DNA of 64,000 nucleotides from Bacteroidota bacterium (GTDB taxonomy: Bacteria > Bacteroidota > Bacteroidia > CAILMK01 > JACPUW01). Within the stretch, counting starts at the first letter, position 1. Each line of letters begins with the position of its first letter. Position numbers and translations under genes: made by a program. Shown piece by piece: positions 13,741-19,076 of the stretch. The DNA is taken from positions 1-64,000 of the forward strand of contig JACPUW010000033.1 in NCBI GenBank assembly GCA_016192035.1, written 5' to 3'. Under the pieces are notes generated by a model, which was not told the origin of the DNA, did not search any database, and worked only from the letters and a program-made list of their open reading frames with translations.

Positions 13741-15250
13741 ACACGCACTGGCCCTAGCCCTGCTGCTCTTTTTGGGTTTGTTTGCCCAGCTGGGACGCTC
13801 CCCCCTGGGGCATGAAGAACCACGCCGGGCGCTCATTGCCCTGGAAATCCTATATGGTCACCAAGGGCTCCAACCTACCGTGCACGGCGAGCCATACTAT
13901 CGCAAGCCGCCACTTTACAACCTGCTCATAGCCGCATGTTACAAATTCACCGGTAGCACACATGCTTGGGCCACCCGCCTGCCTTCCGTCTTGTCATTTC
14001 TGGCACTGGCCCTGTGCATCTACTTCTTTTGCAGGCATTACCTAGCCACACAAACATCGGCCCTGGCCGCCATACTGTTTCTGTCATGTGCCGATTTGTT
14101 GCTGTATTACAGCAGGCTGGCAGAGATGGACCTTTTTTATGCCCTCATTTCCTTTCCAGTCCTTGTATTGCCCTGGCACTACCTGCAGCAGCAAAAGACC
14201 TGGGCATTCTATCTGGTCCCCGCTTTTTTTGCCGGTCTTGGCTTTATGGCCAAAGGGTTTCCTTCCATTGCACTATACGGCATATCGGTAGCTACCGCCA
14301 TAATGCTCCACCGCCGGCCCCACCTCTTGCTGTCATTCAAGTGGCTGCCCGCCATTGTGTTGTTCTCCATCCCTCTCTGTGTGTATTTCTATCCCCAGTA
14401 TGCCAGTGGCACATTCGCCAATTCACTCCAGGTACTCTTTAGCGAATCGGCCAACAGGACCATCAAAAGTGGCCTTGGGCCCCGGTTATGGCACCTCCTT
14501 TGGTTCCCCCTCGACACGGTCAAGGGGCTGCTGCCCATTTCCCTCGCCCTAATTGGGTTTAGAAAAAAGTTCTTGGGCAACCCTTTGGTCCGTGCAGCCT
14601 TCTGGCTGTTCCTGGCCAACTACCTGTTGTACTTGATATCGCCCGGCGCACGCCTGCGATATGTCTATATGCTCTTTCCCTTGATTTGCATGGCAGCTTC
14701 CTACGTTCTATGGCAGGCCAGGCCCACCCACCTGGTTTGGGCACACCGCGTGCTCAGGCATTTGGCCTGCACCATGGTAGCCTTGCTCGGCGCACTGTTG
14801 GTTTTTTTCGCCCAGCCATATCCTTTTGCCATTGCCGCCATGCCAGTGGCTGCCTTTCTAATTTGGGGTTTGAGGGTTCCCCAGCCCATTTCCATAGCCT
14901 CATTGGCACTGGTTTGTTTGCTCTTGGGCAGGATTGGTTTTGACCATGCCGCTGCCCAGCCCCAAGTGGCCATGCGCGACCGCGCCTACCTAGAGGCCAT
15001 CAGTGCCCGCCAGCTACACCAGCTACTGGGCCACAGGCCATTATATATAAACACCAGGGCGGAACGCTTCTTTACTTTTTCGCATGAATATACCAGGTTG
15101 TCCCATCGTGTTATTCCATATGGGTTTGATTTCCAAGATCCTAATGGGGTATATTTGGTGCCCAAAGGACATGGGCCCAAGGGGTCAAGCCCCCTGGCCA
15201 ATTTTGACATAGGGCCCGAAAAAGGTTTTGAACTAATTGAACTACCATGA
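13730..15250 (+). CDS. GT39/ArnT-like membrane glycosyltransferase
   Basis: A polytopic membrane protein of about 506 residues with some ten or more hydrophobic segments. The first loop has HEEPRRALIALEIL and then GEPYYRKPPLYNLLIA, typical of GT-C fold enzymes of the PMT/ArnT type, where an acidic residue after the first membrane span is catalytic. A later LAEMDLFYALIS loop fits the second acidic site. These enzymes move a sugar from a polyprenyl-phosphate donor to lipid, glycan or protein on the outer face of the inner membrane. The acceptor cannot be told. The ATG at 13730 is preferred to a GTG six codons upstream. It overlaps the MepA-like gene by 11 bases, and the DNA methyltransferase gene overlaps its stop by 4 bases (ATGA), so the three genes look like one operon. 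Confidence 0.8.
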   Translation: MLPKHALALALLLFLGLFAQLGRSPLGHEEPRRALIALEILYGHQGLQPTVHGEPYYRKPPLYNLLIAACYKFTGSTHAWATRLPSVLSFLALALCIYFFCRHYLATQTSALAAILFLSCADLLLYYSRLAEMDLFYALISFPVLVLPWHYLQQQKTWAFYLVPAFFAGLGFMAKGFPSIALYGISVATAIMLHRRPHLLLSFKWLPAIVLFSIPLCVYFYPQYASGTFANSLQVLFSESANRTIKSGLGPRLWHLLWFPLDTVKGLLPISLALIGFRKKFLGNPLVRAAFWLFLANYLLYLISPGARLRYVYMLFPLICMAASYVLWQARPTHLVWAHRVLRHLACTMVALLGALLVFFAQPYPFAIAAMPVAAFLIWGLRVPQPISIASLALVCLLLGRIGFDHAAAQPQVAMRDRAYLEAISARQLHQLLGHRPLYINTRAERFFTFSHEYTRLSHRVIPYGFDFQDPNGVYLVPKGHGPKGSSPLANFDIGPEKGFELIELP

Positions 15251-16596
15251 AAAACAAATTCAACAACATAGGCTCTAAAGAATGGCTTCCTTTTCAGAAA
15301 TCTTGGAGCACATATCAGGGTGATGAAGCCCTTTACCGCGCCAATATCAGGTTCTTTACCCTACTGGGCGAAGGGGCACCTGCGCCCTGGGTGTTTTACC
15401 ATGGCCAGCATCATGCACTTGCCGCGCAGGTAGCCGGCCAGGAGGGGAGGCGCTGCACCACCAAGGTGCTAGATCCCATTCAGTTTGGACTATTGGACCT
15501 CAGGGGCCGTTTTGACGGTGTTCAAGATTATATCCTTCAGAAGGCTGAACTGATAAATATAGCTGCCGAAATTTACAAAGTATTGGATAATAGGCGGTTT
15601 ATATGCATTATCATAGACCATTTTTTGCGCGGCGGCCATGCTCCCCTGGCTTGGGACCTGGCTGCCTCCCTCTCTGGCCTTTATAGCCTCAAGGATGAAA
15701 AAATACTGGCCTATCCCGGACCGGGCCCAACAGAAGGGCCTGGCCATGCCTATGCTTTATACCTGCGCAAGGACGAGTTCAGCGGACAAGGCCTGCGCAT
15801 GGGATACCCAGCCCTGCTCAAAGAGGGCCCGCTGCCATCTGCCGCAGCCTCCACCTGGCAAGTAGTGCGCCCTCCGCGCCGAAATCCAAATGAGGTGCTC
15901 CATCCGGCCAAGTTTCCAGAGCAGCTTGTTGCCCAATTTATTGACCTGTACTGCCCTCCTGGCGGCGCCGTGCTCGACCCCATGTGCGGCACAGGCAGTG
16001 CGCTGGTGGCTGCACAGGGGCTTCATAGACGGGCCTACGGATGTGAGCTAAGTCCGTTTTTTGCCCAGCTGGCGCAGCAGCGGGTGCAGTCATTGCCCCT
16101 GGAGGCCAACCGCGAATGGAAAGTGGCCAATGTGGATGCCCGTGCTTGCGCAAGCCAGGGTTTTCCCAGGGTGGACTACATGGTGACATCCCCGCCCTAC
16201 TGGGATATGCTCAATATGAAAGGCGCCGAATACCAAGCGCGGCGCAAGGAAAAAGGCCTACAACTCAATTATTCAGACAATCCAAATGACTTGGGCAACA
16301 TAGCCGATTACCAACAATTTGTAGATGAATTGGTAGAAATATACTGCGCCGTGGGCCTCTTGGTAAATCAGGGCGGCAAGGCTACCATCATTGTCAAAAA
16401 CATTAAGAAAAAAGGCCGAAACTATCCCTTGGCCTATGACCTGGCCAACCGCATGTGTCAAATGGGCTGGCGCTTACTGCCCGAATTTATTTGGTGTCAA
16501 GACGATATAAACTTGGCCCCATATGGCTATGGCAACACTTGGGTAAGCAATACCTTTCACCAGTACTGCCTTCATTTTGAGAAAATAGGGGAGTAG
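15247..16596 (+). CDS. DNA methyltransferase (N4-cytosine/N6-adenine type)
   Basis: A 449-residue protein. The C-terminal half is a complete amino-methyltransferase: a motif X/I block (LHPAKFPEQLVAQFIDLY, 218-235, then LDPMCGTGSALVA, 243-255, the SAM-binding loop), motif IV TSPPYW (314-319) as in SPPY-type N4C/N6A enzymes, and a motif VI-VIII-like block (GGKATIIVKNIKKKG, 376-390). The N-terminal half opens with SKEWLPFQKSW, seen in some stand-alone restriction methyltransferases, and seems to hold a decayed copy of the second half of the fold: ICIIIDHFLRGGHAPLAWDL at 119-138 lines up with 379-398. The start ATG overlaps the glycosyltransferase stop. One base after its stop ends a convergent probable endonuclease, which points to a type II restriction-modification pair. 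Base specificity and recognition site are unknown. Confidence 0.85.
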   Translation: MKNKFNNIGSKEWLPFQKSWSTYQGDEALYRANIRFFTLLGEGAPAPWVFYHGQHHALAAQVAGQEGRRCTTKVLDPIQFGLLDLRGRFDGVQDYILQKAELINIAAEIYKVLDNRRFICIIIDHFLRGGHAPLAWDLAASLSGLYSLKDEKILAYPGPGPTEGPGHAYALYLRKDEFSGQGLRMGYPALLKEGPLPSAAASTWQVVRPPRRNPNEVLHPAKFPEQLVAQFIDLYCPPGGAVLDPMCGTGSALVAAQGLHRRAYGCELSPFFAQLAQQRVQSLPLEANREWKVANVDARACASQGFPRVDYMVTSPPYWDMLNMKGAEYQARRKEKGLQLNYSDNPNDLGNIADYQQFVDELVEIYCAVGLLVNQGGKATIIVKNIKKKGRNYPLAYDLANRMCQMGWRLLPEFIWCQDDINLAPYGYGNTWVSNTFHQYCLHFEKIGE

Positions 16597-16597
16597 C

Positions 16598-17440
16598 CTA
16601 GCCTTTACCCATATATGTACTAAAGGAAACAAGTTCGTCCACCCGGGCCATCATGTTGGGAATCCGCGTACTCAAGCTGCCCACATCAAATTTTCGGGGG
16701 CCACAGGGCACAAATCGGCCCCAATGAGGTGCATACGCCACCGCCACCAGATATATGGGTGATATATAGCCCCATGTAAACCACGGGGCTTCATGCGGTA
16801 GGCTAATCTCCTGCCATTTGTCCCATAATCTCTGGGTTTCAAACGGCAAGGCTTTGGGGTTGCTTCCTTTATACTTGGCCCATAGCCGCTCTATGAGGGC
16901 CAGTTGGTCCTTGTTTAGTTGTGCCTGTAGCAAATGGCTAATCAAAGGGCCTTGCGCCAAGCGGCCCACCATAAACGTAAAAAGAAATGCCGTTCCCGTG
17001 GCTTGGTTGTGGTGGCGCGTGGAGCGCTGGCCCCATTGGTCGCCCAAAAAACGGTTGGGCACCAGCGCCGGCAACCGGCCCAGTTCTTGGGCGCCTACCC
17101 CTAGGCCTTTTCTCGATAAGAGATTGTTTTTTATATCCCACTCCAATCCATTCCACAGAAAATCCCGCCGGTCTAGTGCGTAAAAAGGGGTGCTGCAACT
17201 GTCAAAATCCGCCTGGACGCCCAGGTGGCCCAGGCAGTCATGCACCAAACCTTCTGCCAGCTTGCCCTTGGCTATATTGGCCAGCCGGGTCGGTATGTCC
17301 TTTATATCCATTCGGTTCACTGTAAATGGCAGGGACAATACAGCATACGCAAATGCCTTTTTTACCAATAGGGCATAGCGCTCTGGTGTAGCCGTATAGC
17401 CTATGTAGGGACCTAATTGTTCCAACCTGCCAGGGTTCAT
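16598..17440 (-). CDS. Probable type II restriction endonuclease (PD-(D/E)XK-like)
   Basis: A 280-residue soluble protein with no family match that I recognise by name. It shows the layout of a PD-(D/E)XK nuclease: a helix with AKGKLAEGLVHDCL (Glu63), a short linker, then ALDRRDFLWNGLEWDIKNN, in which Asp93 and the Asp102-Ile-Lys104 pair (or Glu100) give the D-x(8)-D-x-K pattern. The rest contains several aromatic and basic stretches (RSTRHHNQATG, PWFTWGYISPIY) suited to DNA contact. Its position is the main support: it is convergent to the DNA methyltransferase with one base between the stops, the usual arrangement of restriction-modification pairs. A variant box TTACTTTG on the minus strand at 17471-17478 could be its promoter. 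The alternative is an unrelated DNA-binding protein. Confidence 0.6.
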   Translation of the reverse strand: MNPGRLEQLGPYIGYTATPERYALLVKKAFAYAVLSLPFTVNRMDIKDIPTRLANIAKGKLAEGLVHDCLGHLGVQADFDSCSTPFYALDRRDFLWNGLEWDIKNNLLSRKGLGVGAQELGRLPALVPNRFLGDQWGQRSTRHHNQATGTAFLFTFMVGRLAQGPLISHLLQAQLNKDQLALIERLWAKYKGSNPKALPFETQRLWDKWQEISLPHEAPWFTWGYISPIYLVAVAYAPHWGRFVPCGPRKFDVGSLSTRIPNMMARVDELVSFSTYMGKG

Positions 17441-17495: not shown

Positions 17496-17503
17496 TACTT
17501 TTG
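17496..17503 (+). promoter_or_regulatory. -7 box (TACTTTTG) of the thioredoxin-like gene
   Basis: A full TAnnTTTG match. An in-frame TTG at 17501-17503 lies within it, so translation should begin at one of the ATG codons further on. Confidence 0.5.
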
Positions 17504-17512
17504 AACCACCAA

Positions 17513-18043
17513 ATGTCAATGACCAACCACATGTTAAAAGGAATGCGCCTCCTGGCCACCATGGCCCTTTGCTTGTTTCTCACCGCATGGGCCAGCCCCA
17601 CCGAAAACATGGGAACCCTGCCCAGCTATATGCTCAAAACCCTGGACGGCAAGGAAATAGATTTGGCCGACTACGGTAAGGATGGCCGGCCAACCATCGT
17701 TTCGTTCTGGGCTACCTGGTGCAAGCCTTGCCTCAACGAGCTCAATGCCATAGCTGAGTACTACCCCGAATGGCAAGAAACCTACAACGTGGAACTGGTG
17801 GCAATCTCACTTGACAATCAGCGTACCGCCGCCAAGGTGCCCAGCGTGGTAAAAACCCTTGATTGGGAATATGACATACTACTGGATGTGAACGGTGAGT
17901 CCTATCGCAAATTCAACTTTGCTACCCCGCCATATTTGGTATTGGTGGACTCTGCCGGCAACATAGTCTATAAGCACAGCGGCTACCTGCCAGGTTCAGA
18001 ACTGGAAGTGGAGGAAAAACTTAAAGAAATTAGCGGCAAGTAG
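17513..18043 (+). CDS. TlpA-like periplasmic thioredoxin
   Basis: About 176 residues: a hydrophobic signal segment (LLATMALCLFLTAWA), then a thioredoxin fold with the redox motif WATWCKPC and, further on, the cis-proline region FATPPYLVLVD. The order (LPSYMLKTLDGKEIDL, then IVSFWATWCKPC) is that of TlpA/ResA-type proteins, which reduce or oxidise disulfides in secreted proteins or cytochrome c. Several ATG codons (17513, 17519, 17531, 17543) could start it; all keep the signal segment. An upstream TTG is discarded because it falls within the promoter box. It runs divergently from the putative endonuclease and is followed after 58 bases by rpsT, which has its own promoter. Confidence 0.85.
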   Translation: MSMTNHMLKGMRLLATMALCLFLTAWASPTENMGTLPSYMLKTLDGKEIDLADYGKDGRPTIVSFWATWCKPCLNELNAIAEYYPEWQETYNVELVAISLDNQRTAAKVPSVVKTLDWEYDILLDVNGESYRKFNFATPPYLVLVDSAGNIVYKHSGYLPGSELEVEEKLKEISGK

Positions 18044-18065
18044 CGGTCTATATGTCAAAGGATTT

Positions 18066-18073
18066 TACTTTTG
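18066..18073 (+). promoter_or_regulatory. -7 box (TACTTTTG) of rpsT
   Basis: A full TAnnTTTG match, 28 bases before the rpsT ATG. Confidence 0.55.
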
Positions 18074-18101
18074 CACCCTAATTTTTTTCTGAGAGTACAG
18101 A

Positions 18102-18356
18102 ATGGCACACCATAAGTCAGCGCTAAAGCGAATTAGACAAAACGAAACCAGGCGTTTACACAATAAATACTACGCCAAGACCACCCGAAACGCAATCAGG
18201 AAACTGCGCACTACGAGCGACAAATCAGTTGCGGAGGGACTACTAAAGGAAGTGAACACCATGCTCGACCGTTTGGCCAAGAACAATATCATCCATAAAA
18301 ACAAGGCTGCCAACAACAAATCGTCGTTGGCCAAGTACGTGAATTCCTTGTCATAA
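18102..18356 (+). CDS. rpsT: 30S ribosomal protein S20
   Basis: An 84-residue, very basic protein with the S20 opening [20 protein letters not shown] and the closing [21 protein letters not shown]20 binds 16S rRNA early in small-subunit assembly. Length and composition fit the family fully. It has its own -7 box and a leader of about 20 bases, which is short for the autoregulation seen in enterobacteria. Confidence 0.97.
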
Positions 18357-18368
18357 ACCGTTGGGGCG

Positions 18369-19076
18369 TTGAAAGGGGGTGAGGGCGGCAACAAATTGGC
18401 TATCACTTCGTGGTCTGATGATGACCGCCCCAGGGAAAAAATGATGCAAAAAGGCAAGGAGGCCCTCTCCAATGCCGAGTTAATCGCCATTCTCATAGGT
18501 TCTGGTACTGCTGGCTATAGTGCCGTGGACGTGGGCAAGCTCCTACTGCAGGGTGCTGACAACCAATTGAATAAATTGACATCTATGGGCATTAAGGACA
18601 TGTGCGCCGTGCCGGGCATAGGCCCCGCCAAAGCCGTTACCCTAATGGCTGCCATAGAGCTGGGCAAACGGCGACAAGCCGAGAACCAAACCGATCTTCA
18701 AACCTTGACAAGTAGCCGCCAGGTATATGATTACCTGTGTCCGCACCTCACCGACCTAGACCACGAGAGGTTTTTCATTCTCTTGCTTAACCACCGAAAT
18801 GTGCCCATCAAGCTGCACCGGGTGAGCCAGGGAGGGGCCAGTGCTACCGTGGTGGACCTAAAATTGATTTTTAAGGAAATCATCAAGACCGATTTTGTGA
18901 CCGGTATCATCTTGGCGCACAACCACCCTTCGGCCAATGCCAAGCCCAGTGCCCAAGACGTGAGTACCACCAAAAAAATAAGTGAATTGGCCAAAATGTT
19001 TGACATCCGCCTGCTTGACCATATCATAGTGGCCGGAAGTGAGTACTACAGTTTTGCTGACCACGGCACCATTTAA
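18369..19076 (+). CDS. radC: RadC-family JAMM/MPN protein
   Basis: A 235-residue protein. It has the conserved opening WSDDDRPREKMMQKG, a helix-hairpin-helix (AVPGIGPAKAVTLMAAIELG) and the JAMM metal motif HNHPSANAKPSAQD with an upstream glutamate. The final LDHIIVAGSEYYSFADHG is typical. The family is named for a DNA-repair phenotype later traced to recG; its true function is unclear, though nuclease or peptidase activity has been proposed. No ATG precedes the conserved opening, so the start is a TTG, at 18369 or 18396. It follows rpsT by 12 bases and is probably cotranscribed with it. Confidence 0.92.
   Translation: MKGGEGGNKLAITSWSDDDRPREKMMQKGKEALSNAELIAILIGSGTAGYSAVDVGKLLLQGADNQLNKLTSMGIKDMCAVPGIGPAKAVTLMAAIELGKRRQAENQTDLQTLTSSRQVYDYLCPHLTDLDHERFFILLLNHRNVPIKLHRVSQGGASATVVDLKLIFKEIIKTDFVTGIILAHNHPSANAKPSAQDVSTTKKISELAKMFDIRLLDHIIVAGSEYYSFADHGTI

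Follow-up and report, generated by a model that had tools for sequence, protein, structure and literature searches.

EcoRV, which recognizes GATATC, is a restriction enzyme that carries a D-I-K motif (PD...D-I-K). The AccI restriction-modification system, whose nuclease of 366 residues belongs to the family RE_AccI (PF09545), is specific for GTMKAC, that is, GTATAC, GTAGAC/GTCTAC and GTCGAC. Endonuclease and methyltransferase genes may also lie far apart in one genome, as in the separated systems surveyed by Ershova et al. (2012; PMC3488263), where all known functional examples were of Type I and the 19 Type II cases were predictions. Orthodox Type II systems of long residence are marked by avoidance of their recognition site in the host genome (PMC4687349).

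The DNA analyzed here (the window) is a stretch of 64,000 nucleotides from a Bacteroidota genome (contig JACPUW010000033.1; host genome G000). It contains a complete SPPY-type methyltransferase gene and, convergent with it, a gene for a protein of 280 amino acids; their stop codons are separated by a single base (16597). This arrangement, like the completeness of both reading frames, agrees with the preliminary description, which proposed a Type II restriction-modification pair with an endonuclease of an undescribed group. The restriction-modification reading of the pair can be held with high confidence. In the fuller form favored here, the pair is probably an orthodox Type II system whose endonuclease represents a new family; its specificity is probably AccI-like, and its two genes are in some cases separated in the genome. 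Its features are as follows.

15247..16596, forward strand: DNA amino-methyltransferase, 449 aa; complete ORF; PF01555, E 4e-20; PADLOC Type II methyltransferase, E 8.6e-30
15511..15774, forward strand: degenerate N-terminal repeat of the methyltransferase C-terminal half, residues about 89-176; hhalign 98.4%, E 4.5e-15
15976..15996, forward strand: methyltransferase motif I, DPMCGTG, residues 244-250; D244, P245, M246, G248 and T249 invariant in 13 methyltransferases, G250 nearly so
16186..16203, forward strand: methyltransferase motif IV, TSPPYW, residues 314-319; invariant in 13 methyltransferases
16598..17440, reverse strand: putative restriction endonuclease of a new family, 280 aa; complete ORF, convergent with the methyltransferase
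17129..17137, reverse strand: D102-I-K104, putative catalytic D-x-K; invariant in 21 aligned relatives; predicted strand 99-110
17162..17164, reverse strand: D93, putative first catalytic aspartate; invariant in 21 aligned relatives
17252..17254, reverse strand: E63, putative helix glutamate of the active site; invariant in 21 aligned relatives; in predicted helix 49-72

The 280-aa protein has no match in Pfam, NCBIfam or PADLOC and none at a meaningful score among PDB sequences, and plain phmmer also found nothing; as a single query it retrieved no relatives from genome contigs, and plasmids, phages and viral contigs yielded none either. Relatives are present in the kin of the window, with the pair in a genome of the same genus (G001) and the nuclease in a genome of the same family (G002). 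A three-sequence nuclease profile recovered 20 loci in GTDB genomes, G001 and G002 included. Together with the window and one genome from a later search (G634), these make up a family of 22 loci, distributed among Bacteroidota, Calditrichota, KSB1 and Neomarinimicrobiota. In 395 Bacteroidota, another profile search (A1) turned up nothing beyond weak matches within an aminopeptidase-like and a trigger-factor-like protein, which were rejected. The family profile and its members likewise match no known family, apart from one member that hit the PADLOC DRT model PDLC03806 (E 1.4e-5), a match absent in ten members rescanned. Measured against Pfam, NCBIfam, PADLOC and PDB sequences, the preliminary claim of an undescribed group is therefore supported, and the family may already bear putative labels in REBASE.

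The residues E63, D93 and D102-I-K104, pointed out in the preliminary description, are present and conserved in the relatives. In an alignment of 21 sequences, with relatives about 28-44% identical to the window protein, the invariant positions are E63, D90, D93, E100, W101, D102, I103 and K104, so the E63/D93/D102/K104 pattern is not a product of chance. These four residues are kept in all 22 members, the 22nd (G634) having D-L-K instead of D-I-K.

The catalytic half of the methyltransferase (residues about 206-449) contains HPAKxPE, which resembles motif X, as well as motif I followed by TSPPYW; the SPPY motif suggests N4-cytosine methylation. The methyltransferase is predicted to adopt a SAM-dependent methyltransferase fold, its model having matches to methyltransferase folds, and the orthologue in the same-genus genome is 53% identical. 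The N-terminal repeat, detected by hhalign of family sub-alignments, lacks an SPPY motif. Partly duplicated DNA methyltransferase intermediates are already documented, according to PMC3320104 (citing Jeltsch, 1999), and on that account the internal repeat is a further example of such intermediates rather than a new principle. The closest shorter relatives of the catalytic half are proteins of about 290 aa found at 22 loci (L053-L074) in as many genomes of two families of the phylum Bacteroidota. They differ from the window enzyme by the absence of the N-terminal insertion of about 180 residues and of a nuclease neighbor. In the loci inspected, where this neighbor is lacking, their genes lie directly upstream of xseA/xseB (exonuclease VII), and the protein is a conserved orphan methyltransferase beside this enzyme.

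The same full-length methyltransferase adjoins the nuclease in 12 of the 22 loci, which are spread over Bacteroidota, Calditrichota, KSB1 and Neomarinimicrobiota. In 11 of these, the window included, the genes are convergent and lie within about 70 bases of each other or overlap; in the twelfth (L018) they are divergent, with a 33-base gap. The preliminary expectation that homologues stand beside the same type of methyltransferase holds in part: no adjacent one is found in 8 to 10 of the 22 loci, but the genomes concerned, with one exception, carry the same methyltransferase elsewhere. Thus, nine of the ten non-adjacent loci have it in the same genome or nearby: 1.5 kb away in L022, elsewhere in the genome in L016, L019, L029, L030, L031 and L033, separated in G634, and in L023 with both the nuclease locus and its methyltransferase cut by contig ends. 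The sole genome without it is G002/G482 (L003/L015), where the nuclease gene is also broken by an in-frame TGA, past which homology resumes. The gene has the look of a decayed copy, or else the TGA is an error due to low coverage; since the draft is about 88% complete and the contig has 2.3x coverage, the missing methyltransferase and the TGA could both be artefacts.

Dependence between the two genes is also evident in the absence of linkage. Among 150 Saprospiraceae genomes, the nuclease and the full-length methyltransferase occur in exactly the same five, in four of them on different contigs; if genomes are treated as independent, ignoring kinship, the probability of this by chance is about 2e-9. 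The tree distances of the two proteins are correlated (Mantel r 0.66, permutation p 5e-5), and the pairing recurs in independent lineages. The likeness to the separated systems of Ershova et al. (2012) lies in the distance between the two genes in one genome; the differences are that this nuclease family occurs in both adjacent and separated states and that site avoidance offers additional support. The neighbors of the nuclease gene (window 17501-19076; L002, L003, L014, L015), encoding TlpA-like thioredoxin, ribosomal protein S20-like and RadC-like proteins, are common to three genomes of the family, which indicates vertical inheritance of the locus there.

A Type II pair of long residence would be expected to leave few copies of its site in the DNA of its host (PMC4687349). 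GTATAC, the initial candidate, is absent from 386 kb of the host genome versus 72.5 copies expected, and the whole 2.98-Mb genome contains six copies versus 938 of the pattern read backwards. This sequence alone was abandoned as the site, as single-base variants showed that the depletion spans exactly GTMKAC: GTATAC, GTAGAC/GTCTAC and GTCGAC are depleted, while GTGTAC, GTTTAC, ATATAC and other neighbors are normal. GTMKAC occurs once in the 386 kb versus 167 expected, and not at all in the window versus 24.4 expected. When 1960 degenerate palindromes were scanned without bias in ten pair-bearing genomes combined, it came first by both measures. Taken genome by genome among about 800 degenerate palindromes, it is the most depleted in G000, G001, G485, G487, G488 and G490, second in G483 and fifth in G489; in the remaining two of the ten, G484 and G634, it is not clearly depleted. 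G004, which lacks the pair and was the only control genome of the Markov analysis, shows mild depletion (26 against 57). A further palindrome, CATATG (cut by NdeI), is depleted in several pair-bearing genomes, at ratios of 0.05-0.34, as seen in samples of G001, G487, G488, G489, G485 and G483, but hardly in G000.

The strongest competitor to GTMKAC as the site of the pair is a Type II pair with a different specificity, the depletion being caused in the same genomes by another system or left as the trace of a lost one. This is consistent with the two pair-bearing genomes without depletion and with depletion in Saprospiraceae that lack the pair. For whole-genome counts, GTCTAC was used in place of GTMKAC, with the pattern read backwards as the control. 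Among Saprospiraceae with neither the pair nor detected RE_AccI, 12 genomes (ratio <=0.05) to 21 (<=0.11) are depleted, so GTMKAC is also lost from this family for another reason, which may act in pair-bearing genomes as well. In G535, G540, G549, G555, G561, G569, G572, G580, G585, G620, G621 and G505, GTCTAC stands at 0.4-4% of the backwards control. Carriage of a diverged copy of the pair by such genomes was considered and set aside, as the methyltransferase profile found no close methyltransferase in most of them; they probably carry another system whose site overlaps with GTMKAC.

The known AccI family served as a reference. A search for RE_AccI (PF09545) in 54 genomes found it in four and in none of the pair-bearing ones, so AccI does not explain the depletion in the latter, and the two nuclease families were not found together in one genome. 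All four carriers are depleted in GTCTAC, which indicates that the signal responds to the family named for the GTMKAC enzyme, although the 54 genomes were picked partly for low GTCTAC and the four cases are indicative rather than a blind test. The window pair resembles the AccI system in its predicted recognition site and in the depletion of the same site in its hosts. Homology between the nucleases was rejected, as none of 21 members matches Pfam RE_AccI and the hhalign probability is 0.9%; the proteins differ in length as well (280 versus 366 residues).

A site other than GTMKAC is nevertheless unlikely for the pair. In most pair-bearing genomes, which come from separate groups, GTMKAC is the single most depleted motif; RE_AccI is missing from all those searched; and pair-bearing Saprospiraceae are lower in GTCTAC than the remaining Saprospiraceae (Mann-Whitney p 0.0026). 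GTMKAC is accordingly considered the probable site of the pair, an assignment that is strong but, owing to the other depleted Saprospiraceae, not airtight.

Less probable still is a domesticated pair, retained vertically for a long time and unlinked in several lineages, whose site has nearly vanished from the host. It would be no mobile selfish cassette but would act in permanent host-integrated DNA surveillance or in a methyl-directed role. A pair without a defensive role, its nuclease being a methylation-guided host enzyme that serves repair or replication in a MutH/Dam-like manner, would accord with vertical inheritance in Saprospiraceae, where the genes are unlinked yet co-retained, and with the synteny that each gene keeps in related genomes. 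Such a function is very improbable: repair could not do without its sites, whereas the almost complete disappearance of a candidate site from hosts is the product of self-toxic Type II systems (PMC4687349), and the pair is found only patchily, in 5 of 150 Saprospiraceae.

The fold of the 280-aa protein is likely of the PD-(D/E)XK type, as judged from the motif, its placing in a predicted helix (49-72) and strands (94-96 and 99-110), with E63, D93 and D102-x-K104 invariant, and the best fold matches. The AF2 model has a pLDDT of 92.6 and a pTM of 0.91. Its PDB fold matches at ranks 1-12 are all EcoRV, with NaeI and PspGI lower down. The best EcoRV match is non-significant (E 0.05, probability 0.2, TM about 0.25) and there is no sequence match between EcoRV and the 280-aa protein, making this similarity only a lead. 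Viral models match more strongly; the single one with E<=0.001 has no known function, and named PD-(D/E)XK matches among viral models are weaker than this. The nuclease fold anticipated in the preliminary description thus met with no contrary fold, but the non-significance of the EcoRV matches leaves it a prediction. That the protein is no nuclease at all, its D-x-K having arisen by chance in an unrelated conserved neighbor, would accord with the lack of a sequence family and of a significant PDB fold match but is scarcely credible, given an active-site pattern that does not vary although identities are about 30-40%, the strict dependence of the protein on the methyltransferase and best PDB fold matches that are all restriction enzymes.

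The Type II restriction-modification reading put forward in the preliminary description is borne out by the pairing across phyla, the unlinked co-occurrence, the conserved catalytic residues, the tree correlation and the GTMKAC depletion. The methyltransferase carries SAM and catalytic motifs (PF01555, motif I, TSPPYW), and a separate endonuclease gene is paired with it. In the proposed mechanism, the 280-aa protein would be a sequence-specific endonuclease, probably of the PD-(D/E)XK type, using D93, D102 and K104 with Mg2+ to cut unmethylated DNA. The SPPY methyltransferase would protect the host by marking the same site in its DNA. The shared site would likely be GTMKAC, the AccI specificity, reached by an endonuclease without detectable relationship to AccI, and the pair would be the cause of the depletion in its hosts.

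Where several genomes have an uncharacterized nuclease in common, a candidate site can be sought by ranking the palindromes depleted in them, an approach that could be reused for other such enzymes. Here it supplies a concrete and cheaply testable recognition sequence for a restriction endonuclease group outside Pfam, NCBIfam and PADLOC, present in several phyla. With this nuclease, two unrelated proteins would recognize the AccI site. The pair further offers a good candidate for a Type II system that functions with separated genes, of which the 2012 survey had no proven example (PMC3488263).
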